Position numbers and translations under genes: made by a program. From positions 1 to 48,156 of the forward strand of contig DASTFB010000109.1 in assembly GCA_035709005.1 (NCBI GenBank): DNA of 48,156 bases. Direction: 5' to 3'. Origin of the DNA: Candidatus Methylomirabilota bacterium (GTDB lineage Bacteria; Methylomirabilota; Methylomirabilia; Rokubacteriales; CSP1-6). The first letter of the stretch is position 1. Each line of letters starts with the position of its first letter. Below are positions 20,492 through 28,110 of the stretch, one piece after another. Below the pieces are notes generated by a model. The model ran no database searches. It was not told where the DNA came from and saw only the letters and a program-made list of their open reading frames with translations.

Positions 20492-20934
20492 CAGCTTCCT
20501 CCCGAGATTTGCCCGGACACCATCCCCTGCGAGGTCGAGCCCGACGGCAAGGCGCCGACCAAACCTCGAGCGTCGACGGCTGCGCGACCAGGGGGGCGGA
20601 GTATGGCCCGGATATCGAGGCCGAAGATGTCCACGACCGTGCCGACCTTGCCGCGCCTGGGCCGCACCAGTGCGATGCCCAGCGGGCCGGGAATCTCGTC
20701 GGCGTCCACACGGTCGATCCGGAGGACGTTCCCGCTCGCGTCGTAGGTGCACAGCGCGATGTTGCCCTGCTGATCGACCACGGCGATCAGCCGCCCGACC
20801 TCGGCGTAGACGTACTGGACGACTGCGTCCCGCGCCACAGCAGCGGCCGACCGCAGTCCCATCGAGATCGCAACGGCGATCGCGAGAACGGCCAGCGGGC
20901 GTCGGATACGCAGCGCGTCCATGAGCGAGCGCAA
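20491..20934 (-). CDS. Exported YD-repeat/IPT-TIG-like protein, apparently shortened
   Basis: 147 residues from ATG 20934; ATG 20919 is a possible alternative start. A signal peptide is visible (basic RIRR, then LAVLAIAVAISMGL, cleavage around AAAVARDA). The mature part has one YD/RHS-like unit (VVDQQGNIALCTYDASGNVLRIDRVD), then RRGKVGTVVDIFGLDI, which resembles the first strand of an IPT/TIG domain (usually G-x-V-G-T-x-V-x-I-x-G). After residue 108 the TIG resemblance stops, and about 40 low-complexity residues lead to the stop. A full TIG domain needs about 80 residues, so the domain looks truncated or decayed. It is the first gene of a coupled three-gene set, divergent from the AraC-type regulator at 20996. 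Confidence 0.65.
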   Translation of the reverse strand: MRSLMDALRIRRPLAVLAIAVAISMGLRSAAAVARDAVVQYVYAEVGRLIAVVDQQGNIALCTYDASGNVLRIDRVDADEIPGPLGIALVRPRRGKVGTVVDIFGLDIRAILRPPGRAAVDARGLVGALPSGSTSQGMVSGQISGGS

Positions 20935-20995
20935 GATTCATCGACGCGCGACCGGTGTCAATGGACGAATCGGTCGAAAAAATGAGTTTTTGGGG

Positions 20996-22183
20996 ATGGC
21001 GCTGTCTTCAAAAAGCTTGGTGCGAGCCGGCGGCGGGCCGATACTTCAACAACTTATCGTGACAACCGGCGACCGTCAGGCTCGGCCCACTGTGCTGGCA
21101 GTCGATGACGACCCGGGTTTCCTCGAGGCCCTGGACGTTATGCTTTCCGGTGATTTCACACTCCTCGCCGAGCAGAGCGGACCGCAGGCCCTCGAGCTCG
21201 TCCGCAAGCACCGTGTCGACGTCATCCTGCTCGACCTCGTGATGCCCGAGATGGATGGCTTCGAGGTGCTGAAGCGCCTGCGGGCGTCGCGCTCGACCAT
21301 CCCCGTCATCATCGTCACCGCGTACAAGGACGTCGATCGTGTCGTGAGGGGCATGAAAGGGGGGGCCTATAACTACGTGACGAAGCCCTGGGACGACGAT
21401 GACGACCTCATCGAGCTGATTCGCGCCGCGGAGCGGGACCGCGCGGAGAGGACGGCCGTGCTGTGCGTCAGCGATGACCCTGCCGCACTGGCGCCCCTGG
21501 AGGTGGCTCTCCAGGCGCAGACAAAGGTGGTCGCGTGCACGCCGCAGCACGCCGCCGCCATGGACATCCAGCCCGACATCGTCGTGATCGAAAGCCCCCT
21601 CGCCGCGATCGACGAGATGAAGTCGATCCTAGCCGTCCGCGCCCGTTTCTGGGACGTGCCCCTTGTGCTCATCACGAACGGCGCACACGGGGAGGCCAGC
21701 CTGACGGACATCGCCGCCCTTGCCCCGACGGCGATATTCGTCAAACCCTATCCCCTGGATGAGATGCTAGGCCGCCTCGCCGCGCTGCTCGCGGCACGTG
21801 GCCGGCTCGTACGTGGCTGGCCCCGGTTCGGTCCTCAGTTAGAGCGCGCCATCGATACCCTGGCGCGGCGCTATTCAGACCCGCTGACCGTGCACGAGCT
21901 CGCCCGAGTAGCGGCCCTGTCGACCGACCGGCTGGTCCACGCGTTCCGGGAGGCGCTCGGGATGAGCCCGAAGGAGTTCGCGAAGCGGCTCCGGGTGGCC
22001 GTCGCCTCGCGGCTGCTCCGGGAGACCGATCTCAAGCTCGAGGAGATCGGGTGCCGGACTGGGTTCAGCGACGGCTCTCACCTGTCGCGGCAGTTCGAGG
22101 AGGCCAAGGGAGTCAGACCGGGCGAGTATCGGCGGAAGGCAACCGGATTCGGAGGCGTCCGGCCGCACCAGTCTGGTCAGTGA
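20996..22183 (+). CDS. Receiver / pseudo-receiver / AraC-type DNA-binding response regulator
   Basis: 395 residues from ATG 20996; GTG 21059 is an equally possible start, giving 374 residues. Domain 1 (about 31-155) is a normal receiver: acidic triad DDD at 37-39, phospho-acceptor D80 in VILLDLVMPEMDG, and Lys in YVTKPW. Domain 2 (about 155-270) has receiver-like strands (TAVLCVSDDP, ..FVKPYP) but the acceptor position reads IVVIESPLAA, with Glu where Asp should be; it is a degenerate receiver. Domain 3 (about 285-385) is a two-helix-turn-helix AraC module (VHELARVAALSTDRLVHAFREALGMSP.. and IGCRTGFSDGSHLSRQF). It likely acts as a transcription factor controlled by phosphorylation. Its tail overlaps the convergent kinase gene by 7 nt; whether that kinase is its partner is unclear. 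Confidence 0.88.
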   Translation: MALSSKSLVRAGGGPILQQLIVTTGDRQARPTVLAVDDDPGFLEALDVMLSGDFTLLAEQSGPQALELVRKHRVDVILLDLVMPEMDGFEVLKRLRASRSTIPVIIVTAYKDVDRVVRGMKGGAYNYVTKPWDDDDDLIELIRAAERDRAERTAVLCVSDDPAALAPLEVALQAQTKVVACTPQHAAAMDIQPDIVVIESPLAAIDEMKSILAVRARFWDVPLVLITNGAHGEASLTDIAALAPTAIFVKPYPLDEMLGRLAALLAARGRLVRGWPRFGPQLERAIDTLARRYSDPLTVHELARVAALSTDRLVHAFREALGMSPKEFAKRLRVAVASRLLRETDLKLEEIGCRTGFSDGSHLSRQFEEAKGVRPGEYRRKATGFGGVRPHQSGQ

Positions 22184-24090
22184 CCGTCGTTATCAACCTC
22201 CGCCCCCACCGCGGGTTCGGCCACGACGGGCAGGGCGATGCGGAACGTCGTGCCGGCGCCGGGCCGGCTGCGGAAGTCGATGGCGCCGCCGTGGTCCTCC
22301 ACGATCTTGTGGGTCAGAGCCAGGCCCAGCCCGGTCCCGCGATCCCTGGTGGTGAAGAAGGGGTTGAAGACGCGCTCGGCGTCGCGCGGCGCGATTCCGG
22401 TACCGGTATCGCTCACCTCGATCATGATCCGGCGGTTGAAGAGGCGCAATCGCCCGGCCCGCATCTCGGCGCCCTCCGGCCAGCCCAGTCGGAGGGTCAA
22501 TCGCCCTCCCTGGCCCATCGCGTCCACCGCGTTGCTCACCACGTTGACCAGCGCCCGGTAGATGGCTTCCTCGTCGGCCTGGATCGGGGGCACGTCACGG
22601 GCGTACTCGCGCACGACCAAAATCCCGCGCGCCTCCAGCTCGTGGGTGTGGAGCTCCACTACGCGGTCGAGGAGCAGGGGCAGCCGCACCGTCGAGAACG
22701 TCAGGCGGGCCGGGCGGGCCAGCTCCATCAGCCGCTCGACGATGCCGTTGATCCGCTCCAGCTCCCGCGGCACCACGCTCTGAAAGCGCCCACGGAAGTA
22801 CTCGTCGTCGAAGCGACGCACCAGCTGACGGGTGAAGGTCAAGATCGACGTGAGCGGCGTCTTGATCTCGTGGGCCAGGCCGGCGGCCAGCGTCCCCAGG
22901 GCCGCCAGACGATCCGAGCGTCGGAGCTGGGTCTCGAGATTCCGCACGGTGGTGAGATCGCGCACGACACTCACCGCGCCCAGATCTTTGCCGTCGCCGC
23001 CCTTGAGCGGCGCCGTGCTGACCTCCACCGGCAGCGCCGCTCCCGTCCGCCGGCGCAGGCTCATGTTGACGTTGACGATCGATGCGCGGCTGGCCAGGGT
23101 CTCCATCAAAATCTCGCCCAGCTCGGGCGTGGCGGCGAAGACCTCGGTGCAGTAGCGGCCCGCCGCCTCCCCGGCGAAGTAGCCGGTCAGCAGTTCGGCC
23201 ACGGGGTTGAGCGTCACCACCCTTCCCTCCAGATCCACCGTGACGATCCCGCTCGTGACCGAGCTCAGGATGCTGTCGGTGTACGTCTTGAGGTCGGCGA
23301 GCTCCTCGAACCGCCGCTTCAGCTCGCCGTGCACCTCCTCCAGCGCCGCCCGCTGCTGCGAGAGCTGGGCCGCCATGTGATTGAAGGCCGCGGCCAGGCG
23401 CCCGATCTCGTCGGAGGTCGTCGGCGCGATCCGCTGGTTCAGCTCACCGCGGGCGATGGCCGAGGCCCCGGCCTCGAGCTGCTGGACCGGGCGGGCGATG
23501 CGGCGGGCCACGAGCGCGGCGGCGGCGGCGCCCAGGAGGAGTGTCACCCCCGCGATGGCGATCAGCTCCAGGCGCGTCCTCGTGATCTCGGCGTCCATCC
23601 GCCAGCGCGAGAGTCCGACACGGACCGTGCCCCATTTCTGGGCGCCGACGAAGACTGGCATGGCGAAGTCGTAGATGGGCTCGCGCGTGTCGCCGGCGAG
23701 GGTCTGCTGCACCAGCGGCCCGGCGGCCCGGGCGGCCGCCTCGTGAATCGGTCCGGCCAGCACCGTTCCCACCCGCTCGGGACGGCGGTTGTGCGCGGCG
23801 ACCCGGCCCTCCGCGTCGAGGACGATGGCGTAGACCACGTCCGTCTCCCCGCTCACGCGCTCGACGTTCTGCTCGAGCGCGGTGAAGTTGTAGAGGAGCA
23901 GGGGGCCGTAGGACATCGCGGCCAGGTTCCGCGCCAGCACCGCGCCGCGCCGCTCGAACTCCGCCACGATGGCGTCGCGTTGCCGGTGCTCGACCACGGC
24001 GGTGACCGCTCCCATCACGAGCACGATGATGAGCACCGTGCCGGCCAGCAGCCGGGCCCGCAGAGACGAGAAGGCGAGTCGGCCGCCCAT
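22177..24090 (-). CDS. Membrane sensor histidine kinase (sensor / HAMP / PAS / HisKA / HATPase)
   Basis: 637 residues from ATG 24090. TM1 about 12-33 and TM2 about 175-197 bound a periplasmic sensor of about 140 residues. HAMP follows (RRIARPVQQLEAG.., DEIGRLAAAFNHMA), then a coiled coil, a PAS domain (about 265-385, VDLEGRVVTLNPVAELLTGY) and HisKA with H407 in LAHEIKTPLTSIL. The HATPase has N-box NVVSNAVDAMG, G1 VSDTGTGIAP, F-box VFNPFFTTRDRGTGLGLAL. This is the NtrB/AtoS-like kinase type that pairs with sigma-54 activators. Its start overlaps the stop of the upstream binding-protein gene (TGATG), so receptor and kinase are co-translated. The NtrC-type regulator at 26184 is the likely partner. 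Confidence 0.94.
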   Translation of the reverse strand: MGGRLAFSSLRARLLAGTVLIIVLVMGAVTAVVEHRQRDAIVAEFERRGAVLARNLAAMSYGPLLLYNFTALEQNVERVSGETDVVYAIVLDAEGRVAAHNRRPERVGTVLAGPIHEAAARAAGPLVQQTLAGDTREPIYDFAMPVFVGAQKWGTVRVGLSRWRMDAEITRTRLELIAIAGVTLLLGAAAAALVARRIARPVQQLEAGASAIARGELNQRIAPTTSDEIGRLAAAFNHMAAQLSQQRAALEEVHGELKRRFEELADLKTYTDSILSSVTSGIVTVDLEGRVVTLNPVAELLTGYFAGEAAGRYCTEVFAATPELGEILMETLASRASIVNVNMSLRRRTGAALPVEVSTAPLKGGDGKDLGAVSVVRDLTTVRNLETQLRRSDRLAALGTLAAGLAHEIKTPLTSILTFTRQLVRRFDDEYFRGRFQSVVPRELERINGIVERLMELARPARLTFSTVRLPLLLDRVVELHTHELEARGILVVREYARDVPPIQADEEAIYRALVNVVSNAVDAMGQGGRLTLRLGWPEGAEMRAGRLRLFNRRIMIEVSDTGTGIAPRDAERVFNPFFTTRDRGTGLGLALTHKIVEDHGGAIDFRSRPGAGTTFRIALPVVAEPAVGAEVDNDGH

Positions 24091-25733
24091 CAGCGGGTCC
24101 GATCCAGCCAGATTTTGCGGAAAGGGATGTAGGGATCGCCCAGGCCGTTCACCTCGACGCTGCGCACGTAGGGCTGAAAGAGCCGCTCGTACGTGTGGTG
24201 CAGGATCGGGATGACCGGGACGTCCGCGATGACCTGCTGTTCCGCCTTCCGGTACAGGGCGATCCGCCGGCTGAGGTCCCGCTCGCCGCGAGCCTGATCG
24301 AGCAGGTCGTCAACGGTGGCGTTCGCGTACCCGAAGAAGTTTTGGGGACTGCGGGACTGGAACAGCTTGGACAGGAAATTGTCGGGATCGGGCACGTCGG
24401 CATACCAGCCGTGCAGGAACACGGGGAACTTGCCCTGGTCCAGCCCTCTGGCGAACACGGGCCAGTCGGTCAGGTACTCGACGTCAGCGTCGACGCCGAT
24501 GGCCGCCCAGTATTTCAAAACTTCCTCGTGCTGCCGCACGATCTCGTGCCGCTTGACGCTGGACCAGATCACGATTCGGGGCAGGCCTCGCCCGCCGGGA
24601 AAGCCAGCCTCGGCGAGCAGCGCGCGGGCCTTGTCGGGATCGTAGACATACCCGCGCAGGGCCGGGTTGAAGCCCTGCGTTCCTGGCGGCAGGATTCCCC
24701 GGGCCAGGACGTGACGATTGGCGTACACGTCCCGGAGCAGCGCGACGCGGTCGACGGCATGGATGAGCGCCTGGCGGATACGGCGGTCATCGAGCGGTTT
24801 GTGGCGCGCGTTCAGGCCGTACCACCGGATGCTGATCATCGGGCGTCTGACGTGTAGATGGTCCTTGGAAGCGAGAGCCTGCTCGTACTCTCGCGCGGGC
24901 GCCGGGGCATCCTCCAGGCGGCCCCGCGCGAACTCCCGGTACATCTCATCCGCGTCATTGCCGGGGAAGATTTTGAACCGGATCTCCGACAAGCGCGGAG
25001 GGCCATCGAAGTAGGCGGGATTGGCCGCGAGCACGATCTCCCGGCCGCGATCCCAGCGGACGAAGCGAAACGGGCCGCTCCCGACAGGGCGGCTCCCGAA
25101 GCCCTCCCCCTCTCGCTCGACGACATCTCGGGGCACGATCTTGGCATGACCCACGGCCAGCGCCGAGACGAACGGCGTGAACGCCTTGCTCAGGGAGATC
25201 CGCACCGTGTGGGGGTCGACCGCTACGAGGCCGGCCAGGTGGCTGGCCCGTCCCTCGCGGAAGTCTCGAGCGCCTTTGATGCCCAGGACCAGATCAGCGG
25301 CTCCCGACCGGGTCCTGGGATCCAGGAGTCGGGTGAGAGAGAAGATCACGTCGTCGGCGGTGACGTCTCGTCCGTGGTGGAACTTCGCTCCCTTGCGCAG
25401 CGTGAATGTCCAGTTGAGCCCGTCGCGGGACGCCTTCCAAAACTGGGCCAGGCCAGGGACGATGCTCAGTGTCCGGTCGAACTGAACGAGACCGTCGAAG
25501 ATCTGCTGGGACACCGACCGACTATAGATGTCCTTGATCCGGGCAGGATCCAGGGTCGCCGGGTCGTGCCCTAGGGGACGTCGATACACGGTGGCCGCGG
25601 CCGGCGCCGTCGGCCGGTCGTCGGCGTCGGCGAGCGCCGCCGGCCAGACGAGCAGGAATGCCAGCAACAGGGCAAGGAGAGGCAAGCGGAACCTGCCTGC
25701 CTCTCCCTCGACCGGCTGACACCGTGACGTCAA
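24090..25733 (-). CDS. Family 5 extracytoplasmic solute-binding protein, kinase-coupled
   Basis: 547 residues if TTG 25733 (GGGGA upstream) is used; TTG 25685, with AGG upstream, would start 16 codons later, exactly before the signal peptide. The open frame to 26129 crosses a promoter and another gene and is not used. Signal peptide: LPLLALLLAFLLVWPAALADADD. The mature part is typical SBP_bac_5 (OppA/DppA/NikA fold): LGHDPATLDPARI, then FKASRDGLNWTFTLRKGAKFHHG-like segments, with D..GLNWTFTLRKG and FHHGRDVTADDVIFSL. A C-terminal lobe has LRRIALYRKAEQQVIADVPVIPI-type sequence. No permease or ATPase gene is nearby. Because it is translationally coupled to a histidine kinase, it probably presents a ligand (peptide, metal chelate or opine) to the kinase. 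Confidence 0.88.
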   Translation of the reverse strand: MTSRCQPVEGEAGRFRLPLLALLLAFLLVWPAALADADDRPTAPAAATVYRRPLGHDPATLDPARIKDIYSRSVSQQIFDGLVQFDRTLSIVPGLAQFWKASRDGLNWTFTLRKGAKFHHGRDVTADDVIFSLTRLLDPRTRSGAADLVLGIKGARDFREGRASHLAGLVAVDPHTVRISLSKAFTPFVSALAVGHAKIVPRDVVEREGEGFGSRPVGSGPFRFVRWDRGREIVLAANPAYFDGPPRLSEIRFKIFPGNDADEMYREFARGRLEDAPAPAREYEQALASKDHLHVRRPMISIRWYGLNARHKPLDDRRIRQALIHAVDRVALLRDVYANRHVLARGILPPGTQGFNPALRGYVYDPDKARALLAEAGFPGGRGLPRIVIWSSVKRHEIVRQHEEVLKYWAAIGVDADVEYLTDWPVFARGLDQGKFPVFLHGWYADVPDPDNFLSKLFQSRSPQNFFGYANATVDDLLDQARGERDLSRRIALYRKAEQQVIADVPVIPILHHTYERLFQPYVRSVEVNGLGDPYIPFRKIWLDRTR

Positions 25734-25738
25734 GCCGT

Positions 25739-25763
25739 CCCCGTCAAAACGGGGCCGACCCCG
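25739..25763 (-). terminator. Attenuator-like competing hairpins between micropeptide and binding-protein genes
   Basis: On the minus strand CGGGG (25763-25759) pairs with CCCCG (25754-25750) across a TCGG loop and is followed by TTTT (25749-25746), a short intrinsic-terminator shape. The same CCCCG can instead pair with CGGGG at 25743-25739, which also holds the GGGGA ribosome site of the next gene. The two structures exclude each other. Stems are only 5 bp, so stability relies on GC content. Confidence 0.45.
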
Positions 25764-25768
25764 CTCGG

Positions 25769-25897
25769 CTAGTCGCCACCACTGTCCGCGGTACCGACCG
25801 CCTGGAAGAGCTCCGTGGACGAGGTGCCCGACTCCATCACCGGGGCTGCCAGCAGGAACGACGCGAGGATGAGAACTGCCGCCCAGAACTTGGCCAT
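25769..25897 (-). CDS. 42-residue exported or membrane micropeptide
   Basis: ATG 25897 follows a strong ribosome site (GGAGGAG, 6-8 nt upstream) and the frame closes at TAG 25769. The product has Lys3, then a hydrophobic stretch of 15-16 residues (WAAVLILASFLLAAPV), and a small polar acidic tail (MESGTSSTELFQAV then GTADSGGD). Third-position GC is high, as in neighbouring genes. It could be a signal peptide releasing a peptide of about 20 residues, or a single-span membrane microprotein. It is the first gene after a sigma-54 promoter and lies 35 nt before a peptide-type binding-protein gene that is coupled to a kinase. No family is recognised. A signalling ligand or a kinase-modulating membrane peptide are both inferences. 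Confidence 0.7.
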   Translation of the reverse strand: MAKFWAAVLILASFLLAAPVMESGTSSTELFQAVGTADSGGD

Positions 25898-25924
25898 ATC
25901 GCTCTCCTCCTGTCTCCGAGTTGC

Positions 25925-25945
25925 GGACTCTCCCCATGAGAGTCC
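25925..25945. promoter_or_regulatory. Perfect 8-bp inverted repeat in the leader of the micropeptide operon
   Basis: GGACTCTC (25925-25932) and GAGAGTCC (25938-25945) are separated by 5 nt. It lies between the expected transcription start (near 25956) and the micropeptide ribosome site, so it would form a 5'-UTR hairpin or act as an operator. No U tract follows, which argues against termination. Confidence 0.5.
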
Positions 25946-25965
25946 GACCAGTCGGGCGACCGGAG

Positions 25966-25982
25966 AGCAACACCCTAGCCAG
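25966..25982 (-). promoter_or_regulatory. Sigma-54 (-24/-12) promoter for micropeptide-SBP-kinase operon
   Basis: Minus-strand sequence CTGGCTAGGGTGTTGCT has the -24 TGGC and -12 TTGC elements with exactly 10 nt between GG and GC, as the sigma-54 consensus (YTGGCAC-N5-TTGCW) requires. It lies about 70 nt before the micropeptide start, and the gene immediately upstream on the same strand encodes an NtrC-type activator with an intact GAFTGA motif. Position, spacing and context agree. Confidence 0.72.
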
Positions 25983-26183
25983 TTTTGCAGTGAGCGCCGT
26001 TGTCAGAGAACCACTCCGTTTCGCGACCTTGCGCGGTGGGCTCCAGCCCCGGCCACCGTAGGCCCTGGCCCGTGGCGGTACAGCCTGGACGAAACGCCGG
26101 CCCGGAACCTCGGCAACCTGCCGTCCCACCTGACGCTTTTCACCTCTGCCCTGCTACGAGCAACGTTGGCCAGAACCTGATGG
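25983..26183 (-). promoter_or_regulatory. 201-nt region between the NtrC-type gene and the sigma-54 promoter
   Basis: This is where upstream activator sites for the NtrC-type protein should lie, 30-200 nt before the promoter. A loose inverted pair, GTTTCG near 26019 and CGAAAC near 26094, is the only candidate I see, and it is weak. No open reading frame with a ribosome site was found and no terminator is evident after the regulator gene. Confidence 0.25.
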
Positions 26184-27554
26184 CTAGGCGGCTCCCTCCG
26201 GACGCCGCAGGCCCCAGCGGGCCAGCTTCACCTTGAGCGAGTTACGGTGGACGCCCAGCAGGCGGGCGGCCTCGCTGACGTTCCACCGCACGCGCTCGAG
26301 GATGCGCAACACGATCTGACGTTCGAAGTCCTCGGTGGCCTCGACCAGGGAAAAGCCCGCCGCGGGCGGGCGGACGCGCTGGTCAGGGACGAGCAGGTCG
26401 AGCGGGAGGTCACCGAGGCCGATGACCGGCCCCTCGGCGAGCGCCACCAGCCGCTCGACGACGTTCAGCAGCTCCCGCACGTTGCCTGGCCAGCGGTACT
26501 CCTGGAGGACGGCCATGGCTTCCGGCGAGAGCCCTTCGATGCGGCGGTTGAACTGCTGGCTGTACTGGCGGACGAAGTGCTGGGCGAGCAAGGGGATGTC
26601 CTCCCGCCGTTCGCGCAGCGGCGGCACCGCGATCGGCACCACGTGCAGGCGGTAGTAGAGGTCCTCCCGGAACCGTCCGTCGGTCACGGCCTGCTTGAGG
26701 TCGACGTTCGTGGCCGCGATGATCCGGGCGTCGAACCGTATCGAGCGAGTGCCGCCTACCCGCTCGAACTCGCGCTCCTGCAACACGCGGAGCAGCTTGG
26801 CCTGCAGCTCGGGCCGGATCAGGCTGATCTCGTCCAGGAACAGCGTGCCGCCGTGGGCCATCTCGAACCGTCCTACCTTGCGCTGGAAGGCTCCGGTGAA
26901 CGCGCCCCGCTCGTGGCCGAACAGCTCGGACTCCACCAGGCTGTCCGACAGCGCGGCCGGGCTCACCGGCACGAAGGGCCGGTCGCGCCGCGGTCCCTGA
27001 CGGTGGATGGCCCGGGCGACCAGCTCCTTGCCCGTGCCACTTTCCCCTGCGATGAGCACCGTCGTGGTCGTCCGGGCCACCTGGGCGATCAGGTGGTAGA
27101 GCTTCTGCATCTCGGGGTGCTGTCCCACCAGCTCGTCGAAGTCCTGCTGGCGGGCCAGCTCCGAGCGCAGGAAGACGATCTCCCGCTCCAGCGAGCGCCG
27201 CTCCAGGGCCCGCCGGATGAGCGCCAGCAGCTCGTCTTCCTCGAAGGGCTTGGTGAGGTAATCGAAGGCTCCGAGCTTCATCGCCGCCACGGCCGTGCGC
27301 ACGGTCTTGACGGCGGTGACGAGGATGACCTCGACCGCCTCGTCGATCGCCTTGATGCGCTCCAGCACCTCGATGCCGTCCATCTCGGGCAGGCGGATGT
27401 CGAGGAGCACCAGATCGACCTGGCTGGCGCGGAGGATCCCGAGCGCGGTCGCGCCGTCGGCGGCTTCGACCACCTCGTACTCGTCCTCCAGGATCAGGTG
27501 GAACGACTCGCGTAGTCCTGGATCGTCGTCGACGACGAGCACGACGGGCCGCAT
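26184..27554 (-). CDS. NtrC-family sigma-54-dependent response regulator
   Basis: 456 residues from ATG 27554, chosen because the receiver domain begins at once (RPVVLVVDDDP); an upstream ATG at 27599 would add 15 residues and has no better ribosome site. Receiver: acidic D9-D11, phospho-acceptor D52 (LVLLDIRLPEMDG), Lys in LTKPF. AAA+ domain: Walker A GESGTGKE, sigma-54 contact loop GAFTGA intact, Walker B GGTLFLDEI, and a normal R-finger region (RIIAATNVDLKQAV, FREDLYYRLHV). C-terminal Fis-type helix-turn-helix: WNVSEAARLLGVHRNSLKVKLARWGL. It should activate sigma-54 promoters after phosphorylation. The best target in the window is 25966-25982 directly downstream, with the kinase at 22177 as partner. 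Confidence 0.95.
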   Translation of the reverse strand: MRPVVLVVDDDPGLRESFHLILEDEYEVVEAADGATALGILRASQVDLVLLDIRLPEMDGIEVLERIKAIDEAVEVILVTAVKTVRTAVAAMKLGAFDYLTKPFEEDELLALIRRALERRSLEREIVFLRSELARQQDFDELVGQHPEMQKLYHLIAQVARTTTTVLIAGESGTGKELVARAIHRQGPRRDRPFVPVSPAALSDSLVESELFGHERGAFTGAFQRKVGRFEMAHGGTLFLDEISLIRPELQAKLLRVLQEREFERVGGTRSIRFDARIIAATNVDLKQAVTDGRFREDLYYRLHVVPIAVPPLRERREDIPLLAQHFVRQYSQQFNRRIEGLSPEAMAVLQEYRWPGNVRELLNVVERLVALAEGPVIGLGDLPLDLLVPDQRVRPPAAGFSLVEATEDFERQIVLRILERVRWNVSEAARLLGVHRNSLKVKLARWGLRRPEGAA

Positions 27555-27590
27555 CGTGCGGCCCGGCTCAGCCCCCCCGGAGGGCCGCAC
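27546..27590 (-). promoter_or_regulatory. Mutually exclusive hairpins at the start codon of the NtrC-type gene
   Basis: TGCGGCCC (27557-27564) can pair with GGGCCGCA at 27546-27553, a 3-nt-loop hairpin that contains the ATG. It can also pair with GGGCCGCAC at 27582-27590 in a 9-bp stem just upstream. The two folds exclude each other and differ in exposing the start codon. If translation actually begins at 27599 the repeats lie inside the coding sequence instead. Confidence 0.35.
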
Positions 27591-27599
27591 CTCGGGCAT

Positions 27600-27729: not shown

Positions 27730-28110
27730 TCACCCGGTCGGCCGATACACGCAGGCGGTGGCCACCGCCTGGGCCAGGTAGCCGTAGTCGAACGGTTTGG
27801 ACACGTAGTCGAGGGCCCCCATCTTCAGCGTCGCCCGCGCCAGGCCGATGTCGTCGTTCGCCGTGATCATGATGACCGGGAGCGTCGGGTGCGCGGCCCG
27901 GATCCGACGGAGCACTTCGACGCCGTCCATGTCGGGCATCCGGATATCGAGCAGGACGACGTCGGGCGGCGCCCGCTGGATCAGCGTCAGGGCATCCCGG
28001 CCCGTCAGGGCGACGTCCACGGTGTAGCCGGCCTCCGCGAAGAAATCCAGGAGCACCTCGGCGACCGCCGGTTCATCGTCGACCACGAGGATTCGGGACG
28101 CCTCACTCAT
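27730..28110 (-). CDS. Stand-alone receiver-domain response regulator (CheY-like)
   Basis: 126 residues from ATG 28110, a single receiver domain and nothing more. Acidic pair D11-D12, phospho-acceptor D55 (VVLLDIRMPDMDG), Thr in MITAND and Lys in VSKPFDYGYL are all present, so it should be phosphorylatable. There is no output domain, so it would act by protein contact or as a phosphate shuttle or sink. It is the first gene of the minus-strand regulatory array that continues with the NtrC-type gene 176 nt downstream. No good ribosome site is seen before the ATG. It may share a kinase with the NtrC-type regulator. Confidence 0.92.
   Translation of the reverse strand: MSEASRILVVDDEPAVAEVLLDFFAEAGYTVDVALTGRDALTLIQRAPPDVVLLDIRMPDMDGVEVLRRIRAAHPTLPVIMITANDDIGLARATLKMGALDYVSKPFDYGYLAQAVATACVYRPTG

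Follow-up and report, generated by a model that had tools for sequence, protein, structure and literature searches.

The window analysed here (the whole stretch of DNA, 48,156 nt) carries on its minus strand a cassette in the order NtrC-type regulator, -24/-12 element, micropeptide, family-5 solute-binding protein and Cache/PAS histidine kinase (Table 1). This order is held in nearly all relatives' loci long enough to test, including those from other families of the class. Two further regulators were considered as parts of the cassette and rejected, as neither has an orthologue in the relatives' cassettes. One, a single-receiver regulator, is encoded directly upstream of the NtrC-type gene (27730-28110, minus strand), and the other combines a receiver with an AraC-type regulator and is convergent with the kinase gene (20921-22183, plus strand).

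Table 1. Features of the cassette, with positions in the window
Feature	Position	Strand	Remarks
Sensor histidine kinase	22177..24090	-	sCache_3_2, HAMP, PAS, HisKA, HATPase_c; ATG overlaps the binding-protein stop
Family-5 solute-binding protein (Dpp/Opp type)	24090..25733	-	Signal-peptide-like start; start uncertain, TTG 25733 proposed; SBP_bac_5 PF00496
GC-rich hairpin, micropeptide/binding-protein intergenic	25735..25760	-	z-score unremarkable in the window; stronger in many relatives
Micropeptide gene, 42 aa, MAKFWAAVLILASFLLAAPVMESGTSSTELFQAVGTADSGGD	25769..25897	-	N-terminal hydrophobic segment; tail presumed outside the cytoplasm
Ribosome-binding site AGGAGGAG	25904..25911	-	Seen in the sequence
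Leader RNA hairpin CGGACTCTC-AUGGG-GAGAGUCCG	25924..25946	-	Covariation; top model match in own genome
Sigma-54 -24/-12 promoter TGGC-TAGGGTG-TTGCT	25966..25981	-	Predicted transcription start ~25955
Candidate degenerate enhancer TGTACCGCCACGGGCCA	26066..26082	-	At -101, as the dyads of some relatives; 5.0 bits, shuffle P = 0.094, weak alone
NtrC/AtoC-type response regulator	26184..27599	-	Receiver, AAA+ with GAFTGA, Fis-type HTH; presumed activator

Results

The -24/-12 element and its conservation

Read on the minus strand, positions 25982 to 25966 give C-TGGC-TAGGGTG-TTGCT, with the GG at 25980-25979, the GC at 25968-25967 and exactly 10 nt between them, as the sequence-only reading had described. 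The site has both this spacing and the TGGC-N7-TTGC context of a sigma-54 promoter, and it differs from TGGCACGNNNNTTGCW at two positions; the consensus of RpoN sites in E. coli is TGGCACnnTTnTTGC (PMC8743547). The micropeptide ATG (25897) lies 68 nt beyond the end of the element, in agreement with the earlier estimate of about 70 nt, and the stop of the NtrC-type gene lies about 200 bp upstream of it.

The same reading had called such a match rare by chance, which overstates the case for the single site. TGGC-N7-TTGCW occurs exactly once in the window, where 0.27 occurrences are expected and 23 of 100 shuffles contain at least one, and the strict core string is found 85 times in the organism's own 4.6-Mb genome against 60 times for the reversed control. 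The lone site is therefore suggestive rather than compelling. Near-matches to TGGCACGNNNNTTGCW with three or fewer mismatches number 44 in the window, fewer than the 65 of the shuffles. To obtain a promoter footprint, 45 loci were oriented on the micropeptide ATG; some come from the same genus and are not independent, but together they are spread over more than 20 genera and several families. A relaxed -24/-12 match precedes the micropeptide in 42 of these loci, at 59-116 nt, and the strict core is present in 36 of the 45 leaders; dinucleotide shuffling predicts 0.03, and among 7441 control windows 4 have it. Two of the three remaining loci have one-base variants (TGGC-N7-TTGCG in L129 and TGGC-N7-ATGCT in L133). 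Column information reaches 1.4-2.5 bits in the core compared with a flank mean of 0.17, and the promoter before the micropeptide is also kept in other families of the class. Its identification rests on position and conservation across orthologous leaders, a single site being weak evidence by itself, and on these grounds we regard the window motif, with near certainty, as a genuine sigma-54 promoter. In kind, the promoter itself is ordinary and classical.

Sigma-54 machinery and the NtrC-type regulator

Absence of rpoN from the genome had been named in advance as evidence that would count against sigma-54 control of the operon, and we looked for the gene. Contig C133 carries, in one open frame, the gene for a full-length RpoN that has both region I and the RpoN box (ARRTVAKYRE). 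The adjoining regulator contains GAFTGA, the sigma-54-interacting motif, and these two findings, together with the promoter kept across the micropeptide family, support the proposed sigma-54 control. A second, partial Sigma54_DBD match at the very end of a contig (L002, G000:C96) is a possible second rpoN. At least 27 places in the organism's own genome (G000) match the NtrC-type regulator at E <= 1e-60, which indicates that the lineage uses sigma-54 activators heavily. One paralogous regulator, on contig C12, was considered as the start of a second cassette and rejected, there being no micropeptide downstream. The literature searched yielded no report of sigma-54 in Rokubacteria, and the Rokubacteria genome paper is silent on sigma factors.

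The cassette regulator falls below the curated cut-offs of both families that it resembles, scoring 445-453 bits against NtrC (TIGR01818, cut-off 558.6) and 488 bits against AtoC (NF008469, cut-off 714). An NtrC candidate on contig C94 scores better, at 546 bits, just under the NtrC cut-off.

Enhancer-like dyads and a possible wider regulon

In many relatives, tandem 17-bp dyads resembling NtrC boxes occupy the region from about -90 to about -140 relative to the -24 element, with 61 observed compared with 8.6 expected. They are of the types TGCACC-N5-GGTGCA, CGCCCA-N5-TGGGCG and CGCACA-N5-TGTGCG, the first of which equals the E. coli NtrC box, TGCACCAnnnTGGTGCA (PMC8743547). A strong dyad stands at -101 in a close relative (L111), the position of the degenerate candidate in the window. 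The organism's own genome has no perfect TGCACC-N5-GGTGCA, and clear dyads are absent from several relatives' loci too. Between dyads and promoter, near -40, the relatives share a conserved A/T-rich block, which may be an IHF-type bend site. Five genes of the HU/IHF family are present in the organism's own genome.

In one clade of nine loci (g9) the dyad becomes CGCCCA-N5-TGGGCG and the regulator HTH changes from SEAARILG to TEAGRIL[EAN]. Because dyad and HTH change together, the cassette regulator is the probable binder of the dyads, with the caveat that this covariation comes from one clade and represents one evolutionary event.

Pairs of TGCACC-N5-GGTGCA about 19 bp apart occur at several loci in four relatives (G003, G024, G013 and G092), where reversed-pattern controls are near zero. 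Each of four further dyad pairs in G003 is accompanied, at 105-114 bp from the dyad centre, by TGGC-N7-TTGC or by its one-base variant with ATGC. Downstream genes there code for an exported DUF7948 protein, with repeat-rich frames after it, for a MASE1 hybrid kinase, for a receiver-kinase-receiver protein and for a receiver-PilZ protein; in G013 a gene for a large exported NHL/Ig protein follows. These targets suggest that, in some relatives, dyads with sigma-54 sites control signalling and cell-surface functions. The search for a promoter gave none at several of the other dyad loci. The recurrence of NtrC-box pairs with a sigma-54 site in the relatives' genomes (L203-L222) has the appearance of a small regulon. 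Beside enhancer sites we also observed a family of 101-102 aa proteins starting M[AT]AFTP[DE]Q (L211:4504-4809, minus strand; L206:6018-6326, plus strand), and the one member scanned has no Pfam match.

The micropeptide family

Members of the micropeptide family are 40-48 aa long and follow the consensus M-x-K, about 16 mostly hydrophobic residues, then APVIESGTS-x-STQ-x-FQAIGTADGGG; the tail of the window's copy is close to TELFQAVGTADSGGD. Outside the hydrophobic segment the C-terminal FQAIGTADGGG is the best-kept part, and a Pro-x-x-Glu is kept at the presumed membrane edge. By eye, the micropeptides show no consistent signal-peptidase AxA site, and the family has no match in Pfam or NCBIfam. 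Codon constraint (mean pN 0.25 versus pS 0.52, with most variation at third positions) and conservation led us to reject the possibility of a non-coding artefact.

A profile search of 95 genomes of the phylum recovers the family in 47. Among 60 near genomes, 36 have relatives of it at a loose threshold, with 28 of the matches at E < 1e-6. All named records carrying the micropeptide are Candidatus Rokubacteria. A scan of genome contigs for the micropeptide in other phyla, in which only Rokubacteria records were confirmed, relied on one tail pattern, so more distant forms could be missed. Where the regulator orthologue has at least about 68% identity the micropeptide is nearly always present; the two exceptions, G031 and G034, may be due to contig ends.

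The leader and intergenic hairpins

Of the 45 loci, 37 have a nine-pair hairpin with an AUGG loop some 25-30 nt ahead of the micropeptide ATG. It is found nearly throughout the order and is absent from more distant families. All nine pairs have two-sided changes, and covariation is 0.575, against 0.223 after shuffling and no more than 0.24 on sliding. Choosing the hairpins for their pairing biases the percentage paired, but does not by itself explain the many pair types per position. No Rfam family matches the hairpin near its gathering score. When its model was searched against eight genomes the micropeptide leader was the top match in all and other matches were weaker; two of these (G000 C101 and G015 C140), inspected by eye, have no recognisable leader context, and the idea of a genome-wide regulon element was rejected. 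As far as searched, the hairpin appears specific to Rokubacteria micropeptide leaders.

The GC-rich hairpin between the micropeptide and binding-protein genes is frequent in relatives, with a mean z of -1.4 (for example GAAGGGGGGC...GCCCCCCTTC). Such a hairpin could allow excess production of the micropeptide, which we offer as a lead only.

The binding protein and the kinase

By phmmer the binding protein matches PrgZ and DppA/OppA chains, and among proteins of solved structure its nearest relatives bind peptides, dipeptides and heme. Its GWYADVPDPDNF aligns with GWTGDNGDPDNF of DppA, the motif of Asp408, the residue that holds the ligand amino terminus in DppA. The window protein therefore has both the SBP_bac_5 domain and the ligand aspartate of peptide-binding family-5 proteins. 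All 31 loci in which this stretch was located keep the motif; in the other 14 it was off the contig or unmatched by the search pattern. Judged from frame starts, no Dpp/Opp-type permease is apparent beside the cassette in eleven loci, and some cassettes have unrelated branched-chain-type transporter genes nearby on the opposite strand. The pairing of an orphan binding protein with a downstream kinase suggests a role as co-sensor.

Discussion

From the sequences, their conservation, the coding constraint and the RNA covariation, we consider it likely that the locus is a sigma-54-driven, self-amplifying two-component cassette with a micropeptide, activated by the adjacent regulator. The promoter would drive three genes as one operon, those for the micropeptide, the extracytoplasmic binding protein and the sensor kinase. 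The adjoining NtrC-type regulator would most likely activate it through tandem dyads about 100 bp upstream, probably assisted by DNA bending at the A/T-rich block. The kinase presumably phosphorylates the cassette regulator, so that the circuit would switch itself up on receipt of a signal. That signal is probably sensed by the binding protein together with the Cache domain of the kinase, a role proposed because the operon, where checked, has no transporter permease with it. Through its hairpin, the leader probably also regulates translation or the stability of the mRNA. The micropeptide is predicted to cross or anchor in the membrane with its conserved C-terminal tail outside, and it probably feeds back on sensing, as signal or as membrane modulator. 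Against this explanation stand the degenerate enhancer dyad of the window, the several relatives without clear dyads and the separate, more NtrC-like regulator of every genome tested, which could bind such boxes.

Two roles are considered for the micropeptide, precursor of a signal or membrane modulator of the sensor. It is quite possible, if somewhat short of probable, that it is a small membrane protein tuning the kinase or the binding protein, as with MgrB or ZraP, and not a released signal. The hydrophobic segment that uniformly follows a short basic start at the N terminus, the lack of a consistent AxA site by eye and the Pro-x-x-Glu at the presumed membrane edge are in line with this, whereas a simple anchor would not need so well-kept a FQAIGTADGGG tail. 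More tentatively, the cassette may represent peptide cell-to-cell signalling of a Gram-negative type in uncultured Rokubacteria, where a released tail would pass by way of the orphan binding protein and the Cache/PAS kinase to the sigma-54 regulator, amplifying the operon and turning on surface and signalling genes. We weigh the modulator slightly above the signal because no regular signal-peptidase site is visible, and the signal stays under consideration because the tail is so strongly kept.

A different question is which protein activates the promoter. The promoter could be real and yet be served by the genome's true NtrC, as part of general nitrogen control, with the neighbouring regulator acting elsewhere. 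This is a live rival because each genome tested encodes a distinct, more NtrC-like regulator (about 535-553 bits), and the dyads of many relatives are identical to the NtrC box of E. coli (PMC8743547). We nevertheless regard it as unlikely, given that the dyads, where present, lie directly downstream of the cassette regulator's own gene, that they change in the clade whose regulator HTH changes, and that the other dyad targets read are signalling and surface genes rather than nitrogen genes. That the -24/-12 match is a product of chance, with another promoter driving the operon, is highly improbable: the genome-wide counts of 85 and 60 and the two deviations from the extended consensus would allow it, but position and sequence are kept in 36-42 of 45 loci against 0.03 expected.

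The operon marked by this promoter, which we continue to read as a self-amplifying cassette under its neighbouring regulator, appears to be undescribed in the resources searched. It is kept over a deep bacterial group and joins a micropeptide family, absent from every library searched, to a binding protein, a sensor, a sigma-54 regulator and an RNA leader of its own. Should the micropeptide be a signal, it would make the communication, and perhaps the cultivation, of an uncultured soil lineage open to study; should it be a modulator, it would be a new kind of small sensor partner.

The nearest parallel for the promoter is the NtrC-activated sigma-54 promoters of E. coli (PMC8743547), which likewise combine a -24/-12 element with a GAFTGA AAA+ activator and whose upstream 17-bp dyads and A/T-rich block have counterparts in the relatives. 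The cassette differs from them in that its presumed activator is AtoC/NtrC-like and under both families' curated cut-offs, in that this activator's target is the operon for its own micropeptide, sensor and binding protein, and in its leader with a covarying hairpin. For the circuit, other comparisons are useful. In ZraPSR of enterobacteria, a sigma-54 regulator and a kinase are accompanied by a small extracytoplasmic protein that the regulator controls and for which feedback has been proposed. The cassette shares these three kinds of component, but ZraP is longer and zinc-binding, the system has no binding-protein gene, and the micropeptide is without a Pfam or NCBIfam match. In the LuxP-LuxQ-LuxU-LuxO quorum sensing of Vibrio, a periplasmic binding protein and a sensor kinase feed a sigma-54 regulator, as proposed here; LuxP, however, is another type of binding protein, the signal is AI-2, LuxO drives small RNAs and there is no micropeptide gene. 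Finally, the peptide and pheromone binding proteins of PrgZ/OppA type are, like ours, family-5 proteins, but they work with permeases in uptake, whereas in the cassette no permease gene was seen and the kinase follows directly.
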